From a virus: 38,395 nt of DNA. This document shows positions 5,107-37,291 of this stretch, piece after piece (position 1 is the stretch's first letter; each line of letters starts with the position of its first letter). The stretch is taken from positions 1-38,395 of the IMG/VR virus record IMGVR_UViG_3300028835_001162. One strand, written 5' to 3'. The translations under genes were made by a program, and so were the position numbers. The notes below the pieces were generated by a model. The model searched no databases. It saw only the letters and a program-made list of their open reading frames with translations, and was not told where the DNA came from.

Positions 5107-6432
5107 ATGTCAGTATTATGGAATTATTTAGAGTATGTAACTCCTGATTCATCCTCATATTTAGAAATAGAACCTCAGAATGTTATGGTATTAACTTCAG
5201 TAAAAGAATCTGGAATTAATAAAGGTTACGGAACTCATTCAGAAGAGACAATTTCATTTTCGCCAAATAATAAATATTTTTTCAATCTTCAATTTAATAT
5301 GCTAACAGAAACAGAATTTGAATATATCTTTGAATTCTTTAATGATACTACAAAAGCAGATGGAAATGTTAGAAGCTTCTATTATACTCCACCAGATCAA
5401 TTTGATAGTACCAGTACATATATATGCCGATTTATTGGAGATACATTATCTGGATTTTTAAAGAATTATCAGATATATGGATTCTCAGAACTTCAATTAA
5501 AAGTTCTTGGAAGGAAATATATTGCAACAGAATATGCATCAGATAATAACCCAGATCCACCACCTCCACCACCTCCGCCTCCTCAATATGTTTTTGTATC
5601 TGAATGGGGAGCAGGTTATAGTGCTGCCCGAATCCAAAAATTTGATTTGGATGGAACATATGTAAGTCAATTTGGAAGTGAAGGAACAGGTGAAGGTCAA
5701 TTAAATAGACCAGAAGGAATTCTTGTAAGTGGTACAAGTATTTTTGTAGCCGATGGACAAAATTATCGGATCCAGGAATTTGATCTAGATGGTAATTTTA
5801 TTGCAATATATGGAGGCTATGGATCGGGCGACGGACGATTTAATTATCCTACAGATATAGCTGAATATAATAATTATTTTTATGTAGCAGACAGTAATAA
5901 TGAACGAGTCCAAATATTTGATTCTGATTGGGCATATGTAAGTCAATTTGGAAGTGAAGGGACGGGTGAAGGTCAATTTAAAGCTCCTTGGGGAATTGAT
6001 ATTGATAGTAATGGAAATGTTTATGTAGTTGATGTACTTAATGATAATGTTCAAAAATTCGATTCAGATGGAAATTTTCTTATAAGATGGGGAAGTGACG
6101 GTTCAGGCAATGGACAATTTAATTATCCAAGACATATTGTTATTGACAGTGATGATAATATTTATGTGTCTGATGGTGGTAACAATCGTGTTCAGAAATT
6201 TGATTCAGGTGGGAATTATTTAGATAAATTTGGAACTCTTGGAGCAGGTGATGGACAATTTACTTCTCCTCGTGGGATATATATCGACAATAATGGAAAT
6301 ATATATATCAATGAATTTAATGGTGATCGTGTCCAAAAATTTGATTCAGATTGTAATTATATAACAAAATGGGGAAGTTCAGGTTCAGGTGACGGACAAT
6401 TTGATTATCCGAGTGGACTTACTGTGAGATAA
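5107..6432 (+). CDS. Distal tail protein fused to a six-bladed NHL beta-propeller
   Basis: 441 residues in three parts. Residues 1-140 match the neighbouring 140-residue protein (6448-6870) along their length, with shared KADGNVRSFYYTP and GYGT motifs; position after the tape measure suggests a distal-tail (DUF2460/Dit-like) component. Residues 149-159 form a linker with nine consecutive prolines. Residues 161-441 hold six NHL repeats (units such as RVQKFDSDGNF, GSGDGQFNYP) of about 47 residues, enough for a closed six-bladed propeller. NHL propellers bind proteins, glycans or nucleic acids; here it is probably displayed at the tail tip for host contact. The N-terminal assignment is by context; the propeller is clear. 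Confidence 0.85.
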   Translation: MSVLWNYLEYVTPDSSSYLEIEPQNVMVLTSVKESGINKGYGTHSEETISFSPNNKYFFNLQFNMLTETEFEYIFEFFNDTTKADGNVRSFYYTPPDQFDSTSTYICRFIGDTLSGFLKNYQIYGFSELQLKVLGRKYIATEYASDNNPDPPPPPPPPPQYVFVSEWGAGYSAARIQKFDLDGTYVSQFGSEGTGEGQLNRPEGILVSGTSIFVADGQNYRIQEFDLDGNFIAIYGGYGSGDGRFNYPTDIAEYNNYFYVADSNNERVQIFDSDWAYVSQFGSEGTGEGQFKAPWGIDIDSNGNVYVVDVLNDNVQKFDSDGNFLIRWGSDGSGNGQFNYPRHIVIDSDDNIYVSDGGNNRVQKFDSGGNYLDKFGTLGAGDGQFTSPRGIYIDNNGNIYINEFNGDRVQKFDSDCNYITKWGSSGSGDGQFDYPSGLTVR

Positions 6433-9762: not shown

Positions 9763-10371
9763 ATGAATTATTATGAAAATAGAAATTTACAAGATTTAGA
9801 CGGAGAAATTTGGAAAACGATAGAAGAATATCCAGATTATAAAATTTCATCTTTTGGACGAATTAAAAGAGTAATTCCAGACAAATGGAATCATAAATTG
9901 AAAATATTATCACAACATAAAGATAGAGATGGATATTTACTTGTTGGTTTATCTAAAAATAAAAAGGGTAAAACTGAAAAAGTTCACAGATTATTATTTG
10001 AAACTTTCATTGGAGAAATTCCAGAAGGATTTGTCATTCATCATATAAATTTTACAAAAGATAATTATTTAGGTAATTTCGAGTTGATGTTAATACTTGA
10101 TCACGACAGTTTACACAAATCTGGTAAAAATCATCCGTTATATGGAAAAAAACATTCTATTGAATCAAAAAATAAAAATAGAAATTCACATTTAGGAAAA
10201 TATATCGGAGAAAATAATCCAGCATCAATATTAAAAGAACAAGAAGTTATTCAAATAAAATTATTATTAGATGAAGGAATATTAACTCAAAGAGAAATTG
10301 GAGGAATGTTTGGAGTTAGTAGATCAGCAATTTCAAATATAAAAAATGGAAGAACTTGGAAATATATCTAA
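9763..10371 (+). CDS. Free-standing HNH homing endonuclease
   Basis: 202 residues: NUMOD4-like N-terminus (GEIWKTIEEYPDYKISSFGR), HNH core with H93-H94 (VIHHINFTKDN), a shorter NUMOD3 part (GKNHPLYGKKHSIESK) and a C-terminal HTH (TQREIGGMFGVSRSAISNIK) ending RTWKYI. The pair HHIN replaces the HHID of most siblings, and FTKDNYLGN replaces the usual NPxNNxLxN, so this is one of the more diverged copies, but the core residues remain. It sits between the tail hub and tailspike genes. RBS TTAGGAGG. Confidence 0.9.
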   Translation: MNYYENRNLQDLDGEIWKTIEEYPDYKISSFGRIKRVIPDKWNHKLKILSQHKDRDGYLLVGLSKNKKGKTEKVHRLLFETFIGEIPEGFVIHHINFTKDNYLGNFELMLILDHDSLHKSGKNHPLYGKKHSIESKNKNRNSHLGKYIGENNPASILKEQEVIQIKLLLDEGILTQREIGGMFGVSRSAISNIKNGRTWKYI

Positions 10372-13842: not shown

Positions 13843-14478
13843 ATGGAAAAAGAAATATGGAAAGAAATTGAAGGGTATGAAGATTATTTTGTAAGTAATT
13901 TTGGAATGATAAAAAGTTTTAAAGGAAAAGATATTAATGGAAATATATTATCACAAAGTAAAAATTCAAGTGGATATTTTGTTGTTAAATTATATAAAAA
14001 TGGAAAACCAAAACCTGAAAGAATTCACAATCTATTATTTGAAACTTTTAATAATATAAAATTAAAGAAAAATGAATGCATTCATCATATTGATAAAAAT
14101 CCATTGAATAATAATTTAAATAATTTACAAAAGATGACAAATTCTGAACATATAAGTTTACATCACAAAGATAAAATTGTTTCTGAAAAATCAAAACAAT
14201 TAATGAGTGAAACTAGAAAAGAAAAATTCAAAAATGGAGAATTGAATCAAAAAAGTGAAAATAATTCATTTTATGGAAAAAAACATTCAGAAGAATCTAA
14301 AAAATTAACAAGTGAAAAAATGTCTGGAGAAAATGGTCCTAATGTAAAATTAATAAATCAACAAGTTATCGAAATTAGAGAATCAAACCTATCCCAAATA
14401 AAACTCGCAAAATTGTACAAAGTTCATCCAGCAACAATTTCATTAATAAAAAATAATAAAACATGGAAACATAAATAA
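13843..14478 (+). CDS. Free-standing HNH homing endonuclease
   Basis: 211 residues beginning MEKEIWKEIEGYEDYFVSNF, shorter at the N-terminus than the MNYYxN-type siblings. HNH core H81-H82 (CIHHIDKNPLNNNLNN) is followed by NUMOD3-like segments (SFYGKKHSEESKKL, MSGENGPNVKL) and an HTH tail (LSQIKLAKLYKVHPATISLI) ending KTWKHK. A spacer of extra Glu/Lys-rich residues lies between the core and the NUMOD3 part. RBS AGAGGAG. It lies between two virion genes and appears intact. Confidence 0.9.
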   Translation: MEKEIWKEIEGYEDYFVSNFGMIKSFKGKDINGNILSQSKNSSGYFVVKLYKNGKPKPERIHNLLFETFNNIKLKKNECIHHIDKNPLNNNLNNLQKMTNSEHISLHHKDKIVSEKSKQLMSETRKEKFKNGELNQKSENNSFYGKKHSEESKKLTSEKMSGENGPNVKLINQQVIEIRESNLSQIKLAKLYKVHPATISLIKNNKTWKHK

Positions 14479-16190: not shown

Positions 16191-16222
16191 AACACCGTCC
16201 TTATTTATATTAGGACGGTGTT
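16191..16222. terminator. Bidirectional hairpin terminator between convergent operons
   Basis: An 11-bp perfect stem AACACCGTCCT/AGGACGGTGTT with a 10-base AT loop, the most GC-rich hairpin nearby. It lies between the last plus-strand late gene (ends 16158) and the end of the minus-strand early operon (16297). Read on the minus strand it is followed by TCTTTTCTCC; on the plus strand by TTGGCC and later T-rich sequence. Confidence 0.75.
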
Positions 16223-16296: not shown

Positions 16297-16653
16297 TCAC
16301 ATATCTTCTTTTAAATTATCTGGTAATGATAGGTTTATATTTATATCTGAACTTTTCCGATCTTTTGATTTTTCATCTTGTCTCTTTAAAAATAATTCAA
16401 TGGCTTTTATATTGTTTTCCATAGCCATTTCAAATAATTTATCCTCAATTAACCTAATCTTATTATAGGATATTATATTTTTAATAGGCTTAAATGACTT
16501 TGAATCTAATAAAATACGTAAATCTTCAATATCTACATCAATACGAGTCTCAACATATATCTTCATTTGAACATCTAATAAATTTCCATTGCACTCTATT
16601 AATAACTGCTTAATTCTATTTTTTTGATTTTTTATATAATCTTTATATGACAT
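16297..16653 (-). CDS. Possible terminase small subunit
   Basis: 118 residues. The N-terminal half (KNRIKQLLIECNGNLLDVQM ... IDVDIEDLRILLD) looks like a helix-turn-helix. The C-terminal half, IEDKLFEMAMENNIKAIELF followed by LKRQDEKSK, resembles the end of phage small terminase subunits, where a helix of the type (A)L..A...GD..A..FWLK precedes a basic tail. RBS AAAGGAAA. It is the last gene of the minus-strand operon, beyond the repeat-rich origin candidate and far from the large terminase (27444). An origin-binding or regulatory protein is the alternative. Confidence 0.4.
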   Translation of the reverse strand: MSYKDYIKNQKNRIKQLLIECNGNLLDVQMKIYVETRIDVDIEDLRILLDSKSFKPIKNIISYNKIRLIEDKLFEMAMENNIKAIELFLKRQDEKSKDRKSSDININLSLPDNLKEDM

Positions 16654-16706
16654 AATTTTTATTTCCTTTGTCCTCTCGCTCGTAAACTCGCTCCATTATT
16701 CTTGTT

Positions 16707-16752
16707 AATGCGTTCTCGATATAAAACCATCGAGAACTAGAAAAGCAAAAGC
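16707..16752 (+). repeat. Inverted repeat A (46 bp), partner at 17045-17090
   Basis: Perfect reverse complement of 17045-17090. The repeat itself contains a hairpin: GTTCTCGAT (16712-16720) and ATCGAGAAC (16729-16737) around ATAAAACC. Confidence 0.9.
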
Positions 16753-16777
16753 GACTATTCTCACAGGTGTGTTTATG

Positions 16778-16911
16778 TTGATTTTGTACTATCATTGATA
16801 GTTTGTATAGTTTGTATAGTCTTGTAATGTAAATATCTGTATTAATTGATGTTTCAAGACTATCATATGACTATACAAACTATCATTTAAGATATTAATG
16901 ATAGTCTATCA
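16778..16911 (+). repeat. Inverted repeat B (134 bp), partner at 17121-17254
   Basis: Base-for-base reverse complement of 17121-17254 with no mismatch seen. It carries two tandem GTTTGTATAG units, an inverted unit, and TGATAG/CTATCA motifs. Confidence 0.9.
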
Positions 16912-17044
16912 ATATATACAAACTATCCAATTCTTAGCTTATTAAAATATATGTGTTGTTTTTATTAACATAAAACACACACTGTGAAGGTTTTTAGATA
17001 CAAATACGATAGGAGTGATAGGATTAGCACAAAACCACTGACTG

Positions 17045-17090
17045 GCTTTTGCTTTTCTAGTTCTCGATGGTTTTATATCGAGAACGCATT
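17045..17090 (-). repeat. Inverted repeat A' (46 bp)
   Basis: Perfect reverse complement of 16707-16752, separated from it by 292 bases that include repeat B. Confidence 0.9.
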
Positions 17091-17120
17091 CGTAGATTAA
17101 CAACGACCGAAGGGAGTTTA

Positions 17121-17254
17121 TGATAGACTATCATTAATATCTTAAATGATAGTTTGTATAGTCATATGATAGTCTTGAAACATCAATTAATACAGATATT
17201 TACATTACAAGACTATACAAACTATACAAACTATCAATGATAGTACAAAATCAA
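17121..17254 (-). repeat. Inverted repeat B' (134 bp)
   Basis: Perfect reverse complement of 16778-16911. Its last bases overlap the TGA stop codon of the prim-pol/helicase gene (17251-17253), so the repeat ends exactly at the gene border. Confidence 0.9.
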
Positions 17255-19065
17255 TGATTTCTATAGGATCCTGTTTTTGGTCTTACAATTTCATTTGATT
17301 CGTACATTCTGGTTAGAACATTATATAAATTATCTGATTCTTTAGACTTAAATTTAATTCCTAATAATTTTCTAATTTCTGATACTGAACATGTTTTATC
17401 TCCAAGCACGTTAATTATTTCTGATTGTTGTGTTACAGTTTTTGGTTGAACATAATCACCAATAATTGTCCATTCGCATGTATCATTATTAAAATCGACT
17501 GATAATGTTTCTTCTTCAACATCTCTTCCAGTTATTTTTAATGTTCCACTGTTTAGAGTTCGACCACGTTCAAGTATTATCGTTGTATCTGATGCGGCCA
17601 TTAATCCTGTTGTTCCACTTACTTTTTCAAAAATATCATTACCATCATTAGAACTGGATTTTCTACTATGATGTAGTACAACAATAGAGATTCCAAATTT
17701 ATCAGCTATTTCTTTTATTTTTGAAATTGTTTCGTAGTCATGTTTATATAGATTTTTTCCAGTTTTTTCTGGTTGTATTTTTGCCAGTGTATCTATTATT
17801 ACAAATTTAATATCTTGGTGTTTACTGAGACAATAATTTAGATGTTCAATACAGCCATTTCCTATTTTTTCCCATTTAGTCATATAATAGAAATTTTTTG
17901 GAGGTTTTGTATATCCTAATTTTTGTATTCTATCACGCAATCGTCTTTCAGTATCTTCTAAAGCTAAATATAATACACTGTGTTCATTAACGTCAATATC
18001 AAATACCGATGTTCCAGAACTAATACCTAATGCCATTTCAAGAACCATCCAACTTTTTCCAATTTTAGAAGCGCCACATAATATAGTTAATCCTTCAGGA
18101 ATTAATGTGTTTATTAACCATTCCATCGGTTTCAATTCCTTTTCGAATAGATATTCACATGTATTTAAATCGTCAAATTTTTTATCTAGAACTATTTCTT
18201 CTTTTAATTCAGTTTCTTGTAAAGCCCTATCTATAGTTGAATTTATATAATCTTCTCTTGTCCATTTATCATCATATAATTTTGATTCTTTTATTATATT
18301 TAATATTTGTTCCTTATCTCTTGTACTTTCTGCTATTATACACGTCAATGCATAATCTGCTTCGGATTCAGATGTGTAGCTTTCAGTGTATCCATTAAAT
18401 AGCTTTACAAATTGATTGTTTTTTTTGAGGATTTTTAGTAATTTATCATTTTTCTTATTGTCAATTTTAATTTTATTAATTTCATCAATAAAATAATTAA
18501 CATCACTTTCTTTAATTGTTTTAATTTGTTTATTATTTTCAATTAAACGAATGGAATGAGATTCCATTAAGGAATCTTCAGTTCCTTCGATTATATTTCC
18601 TGTTAGTGCAAAATAATGGTCATTATTATATATTTCATAATTTCCAATGTTCTTACCTGTAAATATATCCATATCACATTTAACTATTATATGTATACCT
18701 TTCCCACTTTGAGATATTTCTGTGTACGAATTATAATATCTTACCCAATATTTTGCCCAATCAGCGATTCCATATTTATTATCTATACAATTATCTAAAT
18801 CTATGAAAACTAACTTGTCTTTTTCTTGAATACTGAACCCAATTCCATCAAAATTATTATTGTTGTCTAACATTGATACGACATTTGAATAATTTGTGCA
18901 ATTTTCTATTTTTGTTGCGTCTATTTTAATTTCATAGTTTTGAATATTTTTAGGAACTTTCTTATCTTTTTTAGTTGGGTCTTCGTTAGGCTCAAGTTTC
19001 CATACTAACCAATTATCTAAATTTTTCAATTCTTGTGGAATGTTATTTAATTTTGTTTTTATCAT
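17251..19065 (-). CDS. Prim-pol / RepA-type hexameric helicase (replication protein)
   Basis: 604 residues. The N-terminal domain has archaeo-eukaryotic primase/polymerase motifs: FIDLDNCID with D89 and D91 as metal ligands, and SQSGKGIHI (118-126) carrying the S-x-H-like motif; this type occurs in NrS-1-like phage and plasmid replicases. A RecA-fold helicase follows with Walker A GASKIGKS (331-338), Walker B FVIID (421-425) and LHHSRKS (464-470). The C-terminus (about 540-604) looks like a winged helix. It probably primes, and perhaps extends, DNA and unwinds at the neighbouring origin. No separate DNA polymerase was found. RBS AAGGA; two hairpins precede it (19106-19168). Confidence 0.9.
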   Translation of the reverse strand: MIKTKLNNIPQELKNLDNWLVWKLEPNEDPTKKDKKVPKNIQNYEIKIDATKIENCTNYSNVVSMLDNNNNFDGIGFSIQEKDKLVFIDLDNCIDNKYGIADWAKYWVRYYNSYTEISQSGKGIHIIVKCDMDIFTGKNIGNYEIYNNDHYFALTGNIIEGTEDSLMESHSIRLIENNKQIKTIKESDVNYFIDEINKIKIDNKKNDKLLKILKKNNQFVKLFNGYTESYTSESEADYALTCIIAESTRDKEQILNIIKESKLYDDKWTREDYINSTIDRALQETELKEEIVLDKKFDDLNTCEYLFEKELKPMEWLINTLIPEGLTILCGASKIGKSWMVLEMALGISSGTSVFDIDVNEHSVLYLALEDTERRLRDRIQKLGYTKPPKNFYYMTKWEKIGNGCIEHLNYCLSKHQDIKFVIIDTLAKIQPEKTGKNLYKHDYETISKIKEIADKFGISIVVLHHSRKSSSNDGNDIFEKVSGTTGLMAASDTTIILERGRTLNSGTLKITGRDVEEETLSVDFNNDTCEWTIIGDYVQPKTVTQQSEIINVLGDKTCSVSEIRKLLGIKFKSKESDNLYNVLTRMYESNEIVRPKTGSYRNH

Positions 19066-20559: not shown

Positions 20560-20612
20560 TTATTCCTTCTTTATATATATGTTAAGATCAACTATAAAAT
20601 GAACTCACTCTA
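20560..20612 (-). repeat. HNH 3' flank shared with 1002-1061
   Basis: Read on the minus strand from the HNH stop codon: TAGAGTGAGTTCATTT, TATAGTTGATCTTAACATAT, ATATAAAGAAGGAATAAT. Nearly identical to the sequence following the 309-1001 HNH gene, although the two genes are in opposite orientation in different operons. It probably marks the end of a moved cassette or a shared promoter for the next gene. Confidence 0.5.
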
Positions 20613-21257
20613 TTTTATGTGTTTCCAAGTTTTTCTTCTTTTAACATCGGATATTGTTGTTCGATGAACTCCAAATATAAATCCCATTTCTGTATGAGTT
20701 AAAATTCCTTCATTGTATAATTCTCTGATAATTGGAATATCTATTTCTGTTAATATATGATTTGGGTGTTTCTCTCCTTTCATTCTCTCAGAAATCATTT
20801 TCTTTGTTTCGTCTGATACAACTTTTCCTAGTAATTTATCACTCATTAATTGTTTTGATTTTTCTGAATGTTCCTTTCCATACATTGGATTTTTTTCTCC
20901 AGAATTATGTAGACTTAGATGTTCAGAATTATTCATTAATTTGAAATTATTTAAATTATTATTTAATTGATCAAAATCTAGATGATGAACAACATATCCT
21001 TTAGGAATTTCCCCAACGAAATTTTCAAATAACAAAATATGGAGAAATTCGTGTTTCGTTTTTCCATTTTTAGATAATTTTATATACAAATAACCATCAT
21101 TTTTATCTTGTTTTAAAATTTTTCCGTTAATTTTATTTTGTTTGAAACTTTTAATCCTACCGAGATTACTAATCTGATAATCTCCATTATATTCTTCTAT
21201 ATTTTTAAATATTTCTCCATCTAAAAATAAATCTTTTCTATTTTCCCAATTTTCCAT
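20610..21257 (-). CDS. Free-standing HNH homing endonuclease (only copy on the minus strand)
   Basis: 215 residues: MENWENRKDLFLDGEIFKNI, NUMOD4-like YNGDYQISNLGRIKSF, HNH core H91-H92 (VVHHLDFDQLNNNLNN), NUMOD3-like NPMYGKEHSEKSKQL and GEKHPNHIL, and an HTH tail (THTEMGFIFGVHRTTISDVK). It ends KTWKHIK. It is the only one of seven with no three-way-junction element upstream; instead it follows the metallopeptidase gene after 28 bases. RBS TGGAGAT. It splits the early operon without breaking a gene. Confidence 0.9.
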   Translation of the reverse strand: MENWENRKDLFLDGEIFKNIEEYNGDYQISNLGRIKSFKQNKINGKILKQDKNDGYLYIKLSKNGKTKHEFLHILLFENFVGEIPKGYVVHHLDFDQLNNNLNNFKLMNNSEHLSLHNSGEKNPMYGKEHSEKSKQLMSDKLLGKVVSDETKKMISERMKGEKHPNHILTEIDIPIIRELYNEGILTHTEMGFIFGVHRTTISDVKRRKTWKHIK

Positions 21258-21792: not shown

Positions 21793-21987
21793 AATTTATT
21801 CCTCCAAAAAATTAATTATTAATATATGGAGTTACCTCACATATATCTATTTATATATCCTTTTATAGTTTGTTACCGTAGGTGCAATATTCAAATATAT
21901 AAAAATATATATTTTTCCAAATATTCCATTTTTTTAGAGTGAGTTCATAAAAAAAGATGAAAATATCACTAAAAAGTTACTATTAAT

Positions 21988-22015
21988 TGACGTTTTTCTA
22001 TAAATAATTATGATC
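21988..22015 (+). promoter_or_regulatory. Sigma70-like promoter candidate for the plus-strand operon
   Basis: TTGACG (21988-21993), 16 bases, TATGAT (22010-22015). The expected start of transcription near 22022 would fall just inside the branched inverted repeat that follows, so one of the two assignments may be wrong. Confidence 0.35.
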
Positions 22016-22075
22016 CCAGTGCCATTTTGTTTAAAATGGGGTCGGATCTTTCATTAGGATTTCGTTCGACTGGGA
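22016..22075 (+). other. Branched inverted repeat in the divergent region
   Basis: CCCAGT (22016-22021) pairs with ACTGGG (22070-22075). Inside are CCATTTT-GTTT-AAAATGG (22023-22040) and GTCG...CGAC (22042-22070). It is followed by GGGAACAAAATA, a motif repeated upstream of other genes. It may act as an operator or as a leader RNA. Confidence 0.45.
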
Positions 22076-22334
22076 ACAAAATATAAAAGTTTTAAAAAGT
22101 TAATTAAAAAAAGAAAAGGACTAAGAATTAAGAATCGGAGATTAGGAGTTGAACGAAGTTCAACGACGATTAAAGAAGAATAACAGTGAACGAAGTGAAC
22201 GAAATAACCAATAGAAGAAGGAATAAGAATTAGAAAGAAAAAGAAATATAAGAAGATTTACAATTGAATACTAGATTTGTTGTTCTTTAGATGGTACGTT
22301 TTTTAAAAAAATTTGAATTTAAATCGAGGAATTT

Positions 22335-22994: not shown

Positions 22995-23882
22995 ATGATT
23001 GATATAATGAATTTAATTCCTATCCCAAATTTTGAGAATAATGTTGTCGATAGTTCTGGAAATGTCTATAATATAAAAAACGATAGGAAACTCACTCCAT
23101 ATAAAGATAAAAATGGCAAAATTTATGTTAAACTTCACAATAAAAATGGGATAAAACGAGTGTACGTTGATGAATTTATTGATACAAAAAAAACTGATCA
23201 AAAATTTCCAGATAATATAGTTGATAATGATATAGAATCAATAGAAGAAAATGAGCATTACTTGGTTGATGATTCATTTGATAATAATTTACATATATCT
23301 TTTAAACATTCATTGGAATGCGATAAACCATTCCAAGATATAGAAATATTCAGCAATGATCAAAAAACTGAAGAAATTATAAATCCAAATATTGAGGAAC
23401 TATTAAAATTAAGCAATAAAGAAAAAATAGAATTTGATAATAATGATATTGAAGATCTAACATTTGAAGAACTTATTAAAAATGAGAAAGTTAAACATTC
23501 CGTAAGAAAACAAAATAAACATTATTCTTCATACAATAAAAATTTTAAAAAACCCGGAATAGAACAATTAAAGAAAAATATAATTAAAAGTTTCGATAGA
23601 TATGATTTTGAAAAGATATTAAAATTCGATGGATATGTTATCAATATTTACGGACAGATAAAGAAATTTGATAGAAATAAATTAACAAATATTTCTTACG
23701 ATAAATCAAATGATTCATACGCAATTGTTTGTTTATTTAGAAAAGGTTGTAAAATTAAATGTTCAGTTCCAGACATAGTAATTGAAACTTTTATTCCACA
23801 TTTGGTTGGAAAAAATTATAAATTTTTTTACATCGATAAAAACAAAAATAACAATTTTTTAGGAAATTTAAGAATAATATGA
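22995..23882 (+). CDS. Degenerate NUMOD4/HNH-like protein, probably catalytically dead
   Basis: 295 residues. Two regions resemble the front half of the HNH genes: residues 13-62 (VVDSSGNVYNIKNDRKLTPY) and 205-295 (GYVINIYGQIKKFDRNKLTN). The end KFFYIDKNKNNNFLGNLRII aligns with VVHHIDKNPENNDLDNFKLM of the sibling at 24007. The two catalytic histidines are replaced by F278 and Y279 while the surrounding scaffold is kept. A long acidic linker (about 70-165) joins the two halves. It may be a DNA-binding regulator derived from an HNH enzyme, or a decaying gene held open by chance. It lies just upstream of an intact HNH gene. Confidence 0.6.
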   Translation: MIDIMNLIPIPNFENNVVDSSGNVYNIKNDRKLTPYKDKNGKIYVKLHNKNGIKRVYVDEFIDTKKTDQKFPDNIVDNDIESIEENEHYLVDDSFDNNLHISFKHSLECDKPFQDIEIFSNDQKTEEIINPNIEELLKLSNKEKIEFDNNDIEDLTFEELIKNEKVKHSVRKQNKHYSSYNKNFKKPGIEQLKKNIIKSFDRYDFEKILKFDGYVINIYGQIKKFDRNKLTNISYDKSNDSYAIVCLFRKGCKIKCSVPDIVIETFIPHLVGKNYKFFYIDKNKNNNFLGNLRII

Positions 23883-23942: not shown

Positions 23943-24006
23943 TTTTATATTGAAGATTAATGGAATCTCATTCCATTCGATTAAACTTAAGAAGGAGTTT
24001 AAAAAA

Positions 24007-24579
24007 ATGCAAGAAATATGGAAAGAAATTGAAGGTTTTGATGGAGATTATCAGATATCAAATTTTGGAAAGATAAAATCATTAAAATTTAATAAAGAGA
24101 AAATATTATCACAAGTTAAAGATGGTCATAGATATTTACACATCAATTTATATAAAAATGGAAATAAAAAACCAAAATATATCCATGATTTAATGTTTGA
24201 ATCTTTTAATAATTATAAATTAGAAAAAAATGAAGTTGTTCACCATATAGATAAAAATCCAGAAAATAATGATTTAGATAATTTCAAATTAATGATAAAT
24301 TCTGAACATATGAGTTTACATAAATCTGGAAAAAATAGTCCAATGTTTGAAAAACACCATTCAGAAAAAACTCTTGAAATAATGAGAGAGAAAAAGATTG
24401 GAGAAAATAATCCATCAACAACATTAAAAAACGGTGAAGTTTGGTTAATTAAAAAGATATTGAATCCTAATCTATATAAAAGTAAAAAAATAACACAAAA
24501 TTTTATCGGGAAAATGTTTAATGTTAATCGAAGAACAATCTCGGCTATAAAAACTGGAAGATTTTGGAGTCATATATGA
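24007..24579 (+). CDS. Free-standing HNH homing endonuclease
   Basis: 190 residues from ATG 24007 (MQEIWKEIEGFDGDYQISNF), set by GAAGGAG and by agreement with the 33452 copy; an in-frame ATG at 23950 lies in the leader and adds a tail not seen in other copies. HNH core H79-H80 (VVHHIDKNPENNDLDN), NUMOD3-like SGKNSPMFEKHHSEKT and GENNPSTTL, and an HTH tail (TQNFIGKMFNVNRRTISAIK) ending RFWSHI. The usual GKKHSEE is here EKHHSEK. Catalytic residues look intact. Confidence 0.9.
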   Translation: MQEIWKEIEGFDGDYQISNFGKIKSLKFNKEKILSQVKDGHRYLHINLYKNGNKKPKYIHDLMFESFNNYKLEKNEVVHHIDKNPENNDLDNFKLMINSEHMSLHKSGKNSPMFEKHHSEKTLEIMREKKIGENNPSTTLKNGEVWLIKKILNPNLYKSKKITQNFIGKMFNVNRRTISAIKTGRFWSHI

Positions 24580-33412: not shown

Positions 33413-33454
33413 TTTATTATTTTGAAAGAATAACTTTAATGAAAGGAAGTTATG

Positions 33455-33943
33455 ATGCAAGAAATATGGAAAACAATTGAAGGGTTTGAAGATTATCAAG
33501 TTAGTAATTATGGAAGAGTCAAATCTTTAAAATTTGATAAAGAAAAAATACTAAAAGCTTGTAAAATTAAGGATGGATATTTAGTTGTTGGATTACCTAA
33601 TAAAAATAAAAAAAGTGAAACTAAAAGAATTCATGATATAATGTTTGAAAATTTTAATAATTACAAATTAAAGAAAAATGAAGTTGTCCATCATATTGAT
33701 TTCATTAAAGAAAATAATAATTTAAATAATTTTCAATCAATGGATAAATCAAAACATCACATTTTACATAGTTCTGGAGAGAATCATCCAAATTCAATAT
33801 TAACTGAAAAAGATGTTATCGCAATGAAATATTTATGGAATAATAATATAAAAATATCTAATAATCTACTAGCGAAATGGTACAAAATTAGTCCAAAAAC
33901 AATTTCTCAAATTAAAACTGGAAGAAGATGGAAACATATTTAA
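33455..33943 (+). CDS. Short free-standing HNH homing endonuclease lacking NUMOD3 part
   Basis: 162 residues from ATG 33455 (spaced five bases from GGAAG; ATG 33452 would add one Met). MQEIWKTIEGFEDYQVSNYG, HNH core HH near residue 80 (VVHHIDFIKENNNLNN) and then almost directly GENHPNSILTEKDV and the HTH tail (LLAKWYKISPKTISQIK), ending RRWKHI. The repeated NPMYGK/HSEESK segment of the other copies is missing, making it the minimal member. The active-site residues are kept. Confidence 0.9.
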   Translation: MQEIWKTIEGFEDYQVSNYGRVKSLKFDKEKILKACKIKDGYLVVGLPNKNKKSETKRIHDIMFENFNNYKLKKNEVVHHIDFIKENNNLNNFQSMDKSKHHILHSSGENHPNSILTEKDVIAMKYLWNNNIKISNNLLAKWYKISPKTISQIKTGRRWKHI

Positions 33944-36694: not shown

Positions 36695-37291
36695 ATGAAT
36701 TATTATGAAAATGTAGATGATTTATTTTTAGATGGAGAAATATTTAAAGATATTGATAGGTATGTTGATTATCAAGTTTCTAATTTTGGAAGAATCAAAA
36801 GTTTTAATAATTACCACAGAAAAGATATTATAATATTAAAACAAAGTAAAGATGGTTGTGGATATTTATTTGTTGATTTATGTAAAAATGGAAAAGAAAA
36901 AAAGAAAAAAATTCATCGTTTAATGTTTGAATCTTTTAATAATTACAAATTAAAAAAAGGTGAAGTTATTCACCATATAGATAAAAATCCATTGAATAAT
37001 GATTTAGATAATTTCAAATTAATGACAAATTCTGAACATTTGAGTTTACATCATAAAGGTTTGAAACATTCAGAAGAAACGAAACAATTGATTAGAGAAA
37101 AGAAATTAGGAAAATATATTGGAGAAAATCATCCAGGAGTAAAATTAACAGAACAAAATGTTATTGCAATGAAATCATTTTGGAATAATAACATAAAAAT
37201 CTCAAATAAATTACTAGCAAAATGGTATAAAGTTTCTCAATATACAATTTCAAAAATTAAAAACAACAAAAATTGGAAACATATAAAATGA
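36695..37291 (+). CDS. Free-standing HNH homing endonuclease
   Basis: 198 residues: MNYYENVDDLFLDGEIFKDI, YVDYQVSNFGRIKSF, HNH core H93-H94 (VIHHIDKNPLNNDLDN), NUMOD3-like KHSEETKQLIREKKLGKYIG, and an HTH tail (KISNKLLAKWYKVSQYTISK) ending NWKHIK. RBS AAGGGAGA. It has the same N-terminal extension as the 309, 9763 and 20610 copies. Its TGA stop overlaps the next start (AAATGA). Confidence 0.9.
   Translation: MNYYENVDDLFLDGEIFKDIDRYVDYQVSNFGRIKSFNNYHRKDIIILKQSKDGCGYLFVDLCKNGKEKKKKIHRLMFESFNNYKLKKGEVIHHIDKNPLNNDLDNFKLMTNSEHLSLHHKGLKHSEETKQLIREKKLGKYIGENHPGVKLTEQNVIAMKSFWNNNIKISNKLLAKWYKVSQYTISKIKNNKNWKHIK

Follow-up and report, generated by a model that had tools for sequence, protein, structure and literature searches.

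The window, that is, the whole stretch of DNA analysed here (38395 bases), is an IMG/VR record (IMGVR_UViG_3300028835_001162) of an uncultured bacterial virus, a phage. A non-coding gap of 597 nt separates two of its minus-strand genes, rep, which encodes a putative replication initiator, and an open reading frame (ORF) of 118 aa. This gap contains two perfect inverted repeats, A/A' of 46 nt and B/B' of 134 nt, whose arms are 292 nt and 209 nt apart, respectively. As the first-pass annotation of this DNA had described, the two pairs interlock in the order A-B-A'-B', because one A lies outside the B pair. When the region was shuffled 40 times, the longest perfect inverted repeat had a mean length of 10.7 and a maximum of 14, against the 134 observed; the crossing perfect repeats are far in excess of chance expectation.

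The A element is itself a hairpin, also as annotated, with a 9-bp stem and an 8-nt loop (GTTCTCGAT-ATAAAACC-ATCGAGAAC). In the orientation of rep, the elements follow each other as rep - B' - A' - T' - B - T - A - next gene, with B flanked by two converging A-T elements and B' adjoining rep (Table 1). The annotation had also mentioned a third, imperfect pair, for which it gave no positions. The sequences flanking A and A' on the outside (C/C') do not qualify, as 241 of 1000 shuffles were equally good, whereas the likeness of the shorter T/T' pair, TCACAG(T)GTGTG(T)TTTATG, is significant (0 of 1000 shuffles as good). A DNA similarity search of the region against phage records gave no match.

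Table 1. Features of the gap and its neighbouring genes, in window coordinates
Feature	Position	Strand	Description
118-aa ORF	16297-16653	-	adjoins the candidate origin; no family match
A	16707-16752	+	5-nt tail, 26-nt hairpin (9-8-9), 15-nt tail; proposed primase start site
T	16761-16777	+	TCACAGGTGTGTTTATG; GTG-containing, 3' of the A hairpin
B	16778-16911	+	second, inverted copy of the iteron array; 134-nt perfect inverted repeat with B'; parallels in loci L171, L172 and L152
Two iterons TAGTTTGTATA, 9 bp apart	16799-16818	+	in B
Opposed iteron	16872-16882	-	in B
Single iteron	16915-16925	-	outside B
T'	16969-16987	-	resembles T in inverse orientation; lies 3' of the A' hairpin
A'	17045-17090	-	identical to A, opposite strand
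B'	17121-17254	-	iteron array next to rep, beginning at its stop codon; probable original of the two arrays; 134-nt perfect repeat
Opposed iteron	17150-17160	+	in B'
Two iterons, 9 bp apart	17214-17233	-	in B'
rep	17251-19065	-	604-aa initiator; Pfam PF13481 and PF22763, PDB, AlphaFold/Foldseek, PHROG

The Rep protein and the iterons behind its gene

Rep comprises an NrS-1-type primase-polymerase (prim-pol) domain (residues ~1-230), an HBD domain (233-286), an AAA_25/RepA-type helicase domain (307-535) and a predicted C-terminal winged helix (545-603). The prim-pol domain, of the AEP type, matched PDB entry 6k9a (E 1e-13) and a PHROG of DNA primases (E 2e-53). The RepA/DnaB-type helicase domain matched PF13481 (E 5e-26) and, with a profile, 1g8y (E 2e-11), the RepA protein of RSF1010, which is its best solved relative by sequence. 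When the AlphaFold model of Rep (mean pLDDT 72, from a six-sequence alignment) was submitted to Foldseek, the best matches were the NrS-1 prim-pol (N300, E 6e-15) and then DnaB/T7-type helicases. The winged helix is supported by a predicted H-E-H-H-E-E succession at 545-603 and by helix-turn-helix families that were matched in homologues, none being matched in the window Rep itself. In the window ORFs scanned, no further DNA polymerase was recognised. Fusions of a prim-pol, a RepA-type helicase and a winged helix have been described previously (PMC5862659).

Directly 3' of rep lie iterons arranged in opposed clusters. The iteron TAGTTTGTATA is present in seven copies in the contig, where 0.05 would be expected, six of them in B/B' and one beside B. 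Six copies of GTTTGTATAG were also found, and these and all TAGTTTGTATA copies fall between positions 16797 and 17236.

Phased motifs and inverted arrays in related loci

The 150 nt behind the helicase gene were scored in 128 non-redundant loci, drawn from two collection scans and from phage and plasmid records, after removal of flanks sharing a 20-mer, and were compared with 1003 flanks of other ORFs from the same loci. Lag-9 self-matches amounted to 4.45 per 3' flank, compared to 1.79 in the controls and 0.82 in shuffles, kinship being corrected for by the 20-mer removal only. Lags 8, 10 and 18 were likewise raised. At least 8 phased matches were present behind 43% of the rep genes encoding at least 550 aa, behind 22% of the shorter ones and in 3.5% of the controls. 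By contrast, the 5' flanks of the helicase relatives showed no excess (2.6% in the top 5%, against 26.7%). In full-length homologues, short opposed motifs about 9 bp apart are found right behind the stop codon (GTTAC in locus L021, TTACTCT in L099, GGTAA in L098 and TGTTCG in L020), and iteron-like motifs occupy the same place in L113. Such motifs, often in opposed clusters, follow many RepA-type helicase (AAA_25) genes of phages, plasmids and other elements (L012-L177), and B' occupies exactly the enriched position 3' of the rep stop codon. The layout is most likely an unusual, doubled version of an origin type that occurs in many mobile elements. We found no report of 9-bp iterons behind AAA_25 genes in the literature covered, which lacked most subscription journals.

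The doubling itself has parallels. In L171, L172, L152 and other loci, a second, inverted iteron array is located 340-470 nt behind the first, the arms being perfect over 50 nt in L172 and over 49 nt in L171; several of these loci come from Lachnospiraceae and Streptococcus and are apparently mobile elements. Among nine distinct cases, which include L043, an unrelated match, the likeness of arms was 0.81 within loci and 0.71 between loci (permutation p 0.0004, with locus relatedness not modelled), a difference that fits homogenisation of the arms. The perfect identity of B and B' had been ascribed to recent duplication or active gene conversion; perfect copies are compatible with this proposal, and the inverted arms in related elements look homogenised. 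Since iterons behind the stop codon are the state common to the relatives, B' is probably the older array, from which B was copied. By eye, the inverted arms in L171, L172, L152, L014, L070 and L076-L081, 340-470 nt apart, lie between the helicase gene and a relaxase-looking ORF.

The gap as a probable replication origin, and the rival explanations

The best explanation of the region, to which we give a probability of about 0.78, is a phage replication origin whose iteron array has been duplicated in inverse orientation. The annotation had already called the site a candidate origin and the copies in B iteron-like, and both proposals gain support from the adjacent prim-pol/helicase/winged-helix gene and from the comparison with relatives, which make an origin with Rep-bound iterons probable. 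Another place considered for the origin, 21793-22334, has no strong repeats. In the proposed mechanism, the winged helix of Rep would bind the 9-bp-phased iterons in B' and B, the helicase domain would then open A+T-rich DNA, and the prim-pol would start DNA synthesis, plausibly at the opposed A and A', on whose 3' sides the T elements with their GTG are placed. As two opposed hairpins would provide one start per strand, synthesis would be divergent, and the inverted doubling would load Rep both ways.

The possible start sites were compared with ssiA of RSF1010, which consists of 6 nt, a 21-nt hairpin and 13 nt, with one ssi on each strand (PMC4434180). A and A' share this layout, as elements of 46 nt (5-26-15) present once per strand, a hairpin with two tails, close to the ~40 nt of an ssi. 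Their 3' tails face B from both sides, and GTG, a motif used by the pRN1 and NrS-1 primases (PMC4234260; PMC8718748), occurs beyond them, in T, T' and elsewhere.

Several observations weigh against the origin or against this use of the hairpins. GC skew, which the annotation had put forward as a means of locating the origin, tracks the gene strand and gives no origin signal here; its cumulative curve has a local maximum near 16 kb. No obvious iterons are seen behind rep in L019, more than half of the 128 flanks fall below the phasing threshold, and the lag statistics correct for shared ancestry through shared 20-mers alone. Regarding the hairpins, the 3' tail near the hairpin lacks GTG, the nearest being 22-30 nt past the hairpin and outside A; GTG is not obviously enriched in the region; and a search close to rep in full-length homologues turned up no pair of A-like hairpins. 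For these reasons A is not classed as an ssi, and we propose only tentatively, by analogy of layout, that A and A' may serve as primase start sites.

The chief rival is an assembly artefact, in which B and B' would be one locus, or the segment between them would be misoriented, short reads being unable to cross a repeat of 134 nt. A near-identical sister contig, IMGVR_UViG_3300024432_000076, which comes from another assembly, matches the window between 38395 and 17165, at 100% over 13.4 kb and with a single-base gap as the one difference in the next 7.9 kb. It breaks off 90 nt into B', the kind of end that a graph break at a repeat would give. A break at this place suggests that in the sister assembly, too, the repeat occurs in two or more contexts. 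Moreover, the spacers beside the repeats differ, unlike those of a simple fold-back chimera, and the inverted iteron pairs of independent elements give B/B' parallels, so that its perfect identity need not be an artefact. We therefore regard an artefact as improbable. Of the assembly check that the annotation had called for, the junction of rep and B' is the part that the sister contig confirms; as this contig ends inside B', the order and orientation from B to B', including the orientation of 16912-17120, rest on one assembly. IMG/VR searches with the A hairpin and the tape-measure for the left half or for further copies found nothing. The window and the sister contig end at exactly the same base (38395; G001:C1:1), either a fixed genome end or a shared coverage gap, which suggests that they come from the same population or sample.

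A regulatory region in place of an origin, with an RNA element or with operator sites of a repressor, would suit the location between two minus-strand genes and the presence of palindromes. It has little likelihood, as the region has no Rfam match, its promoter-like matches do not exceed those of shuffles, and the relatives share the position behind rep and not one ahead of a gene.

The crossing of the repeats had suggested a switchable or pseudoknot-like structure, or inversion of the intervening parts. In the predicted fold, B:B' pairing coexists with local A and A' hairpins, and the A-B-A'-B' crossing was found in none of the ~150 other related flanks, so that such a structure gains no support; the crossing looks incidental, with working parts that are local and need no switch. 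Site-specific inversion, by which A or B would flip the DNA between its copies, could draw on the perfect inverted copies and on the form of A, in which two inverted arms of 9 bp flank an asymmetric spacer of 8 nt (9-8-9), the shape of a tyrosine-recombinase core site. Among the window ORFs scanned, Pfam recognised neither an integrase nor an invertase or a transposase (a host enzyme is possible), the segment to be flipped is non-coding, and the iteron arrays that relatives conserve behind rep indicate replication, all of which makes inversion very unlikely. Least probable of all is that the region derives from a miniature inverted-repeat transposable element, as a remnant in which A/A' would be the terminal repeats: these do bound a 384-bp segment, but no target-site duplication is seen at their ends, one B copy lies inside and the other outside, the exact 26-nt A hairpin has no further copy in IMG/VR, and no transposase was found in the ORFs scanned.

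Elsewhere in the window, homing-type endonucleases are densely set for one phage, with seven NUMOD4/HNH_3 ORFs recognised by Pfam (309-1001, 9763-10371, 13843-14478, 20610-21257, 23950-24579, 33452-33943 and 36695-37291) and a further ORF that matched HNH in PHROGs (22995-23882). The ORF at 5107-6432, in the phage structural region, carries NHL beta-propeller repeats. A stem-loop, AACACCGTCCTTAT...ATTAGGACGGTGTT, at 16191-16222 between converging genes is terminator-like and was not called by the scan.

Comparison with known origins

The oriV of the IncQ plasmid RSF1010 (RepA, RepB', RepC, ssiA, ssiB) resembles the proposed phage origin in its RepA-type helicase, its AEP primase, the recognition of iterons by the initiator and the two hairpin start sites, one per strand. 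It differs in dividing among three separate proteins what the phage has in one polypeptide; moreover, the tail of A lacks GTG, and the window iterons are ~9 bp apart in an array that is duplicated inversely. The origin of the Sulfolobus plasmid pRN1 is a stem-loop behind a prim-pol/helicase/winged-helix gene (PMC4234260). The candidate origin of the window phage shares with it, and with phage BIP-1, whose origin is proposed only, a place directly 3' of such a rep gene and a stem-loop; pRN1 has a superfamily 3 helicase and no iterons, unlike the RepA/DnaB-type helicase and the iterons of the window phage. The origins of SaPI and SCCmec elements are iterons behind a helicase gene (PMC7581432). 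The likeness to SaPI and to SCCmec (Cch2) lies in short iterons directly downstream of the gene for the initiator helicase. These initiator helicases differ from that of Rep, and we know of no interlocked duplication in SaPI or SCCmec origins. The primase-polymerase of phage NrS-1 is the top Foldseek match of Rep; its recognition motif, TTTGGTTA, is absent from the region, and its helicase part differs from that of Rep.

In its fullest form, which we consider possible and rather unlikely, the proposal is a doubled interlocked origin in which two inverted arrays and two opposed primase hairpins would be served by one protein, bringing the three-protein system of RSF1010 into one gene and one site of 600 bp, and in which gene conversion would keep the two arrays identical.

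The analysis offers a specific candidate origin in a phage that is uncultured, together with a testable rule, namely that RepA-type (AAA_25) helicase genes, whether or not a primase is fused to them, tend to be followed directly by short iterons spaced ~9 bp apart. The two hairpins would make it simple to test whether an initiator consisting of one protein starts at fixed sites on each strand. If the rule is true, the origins of many phages, plasmids and integrative elements could be predicted from their sequence.
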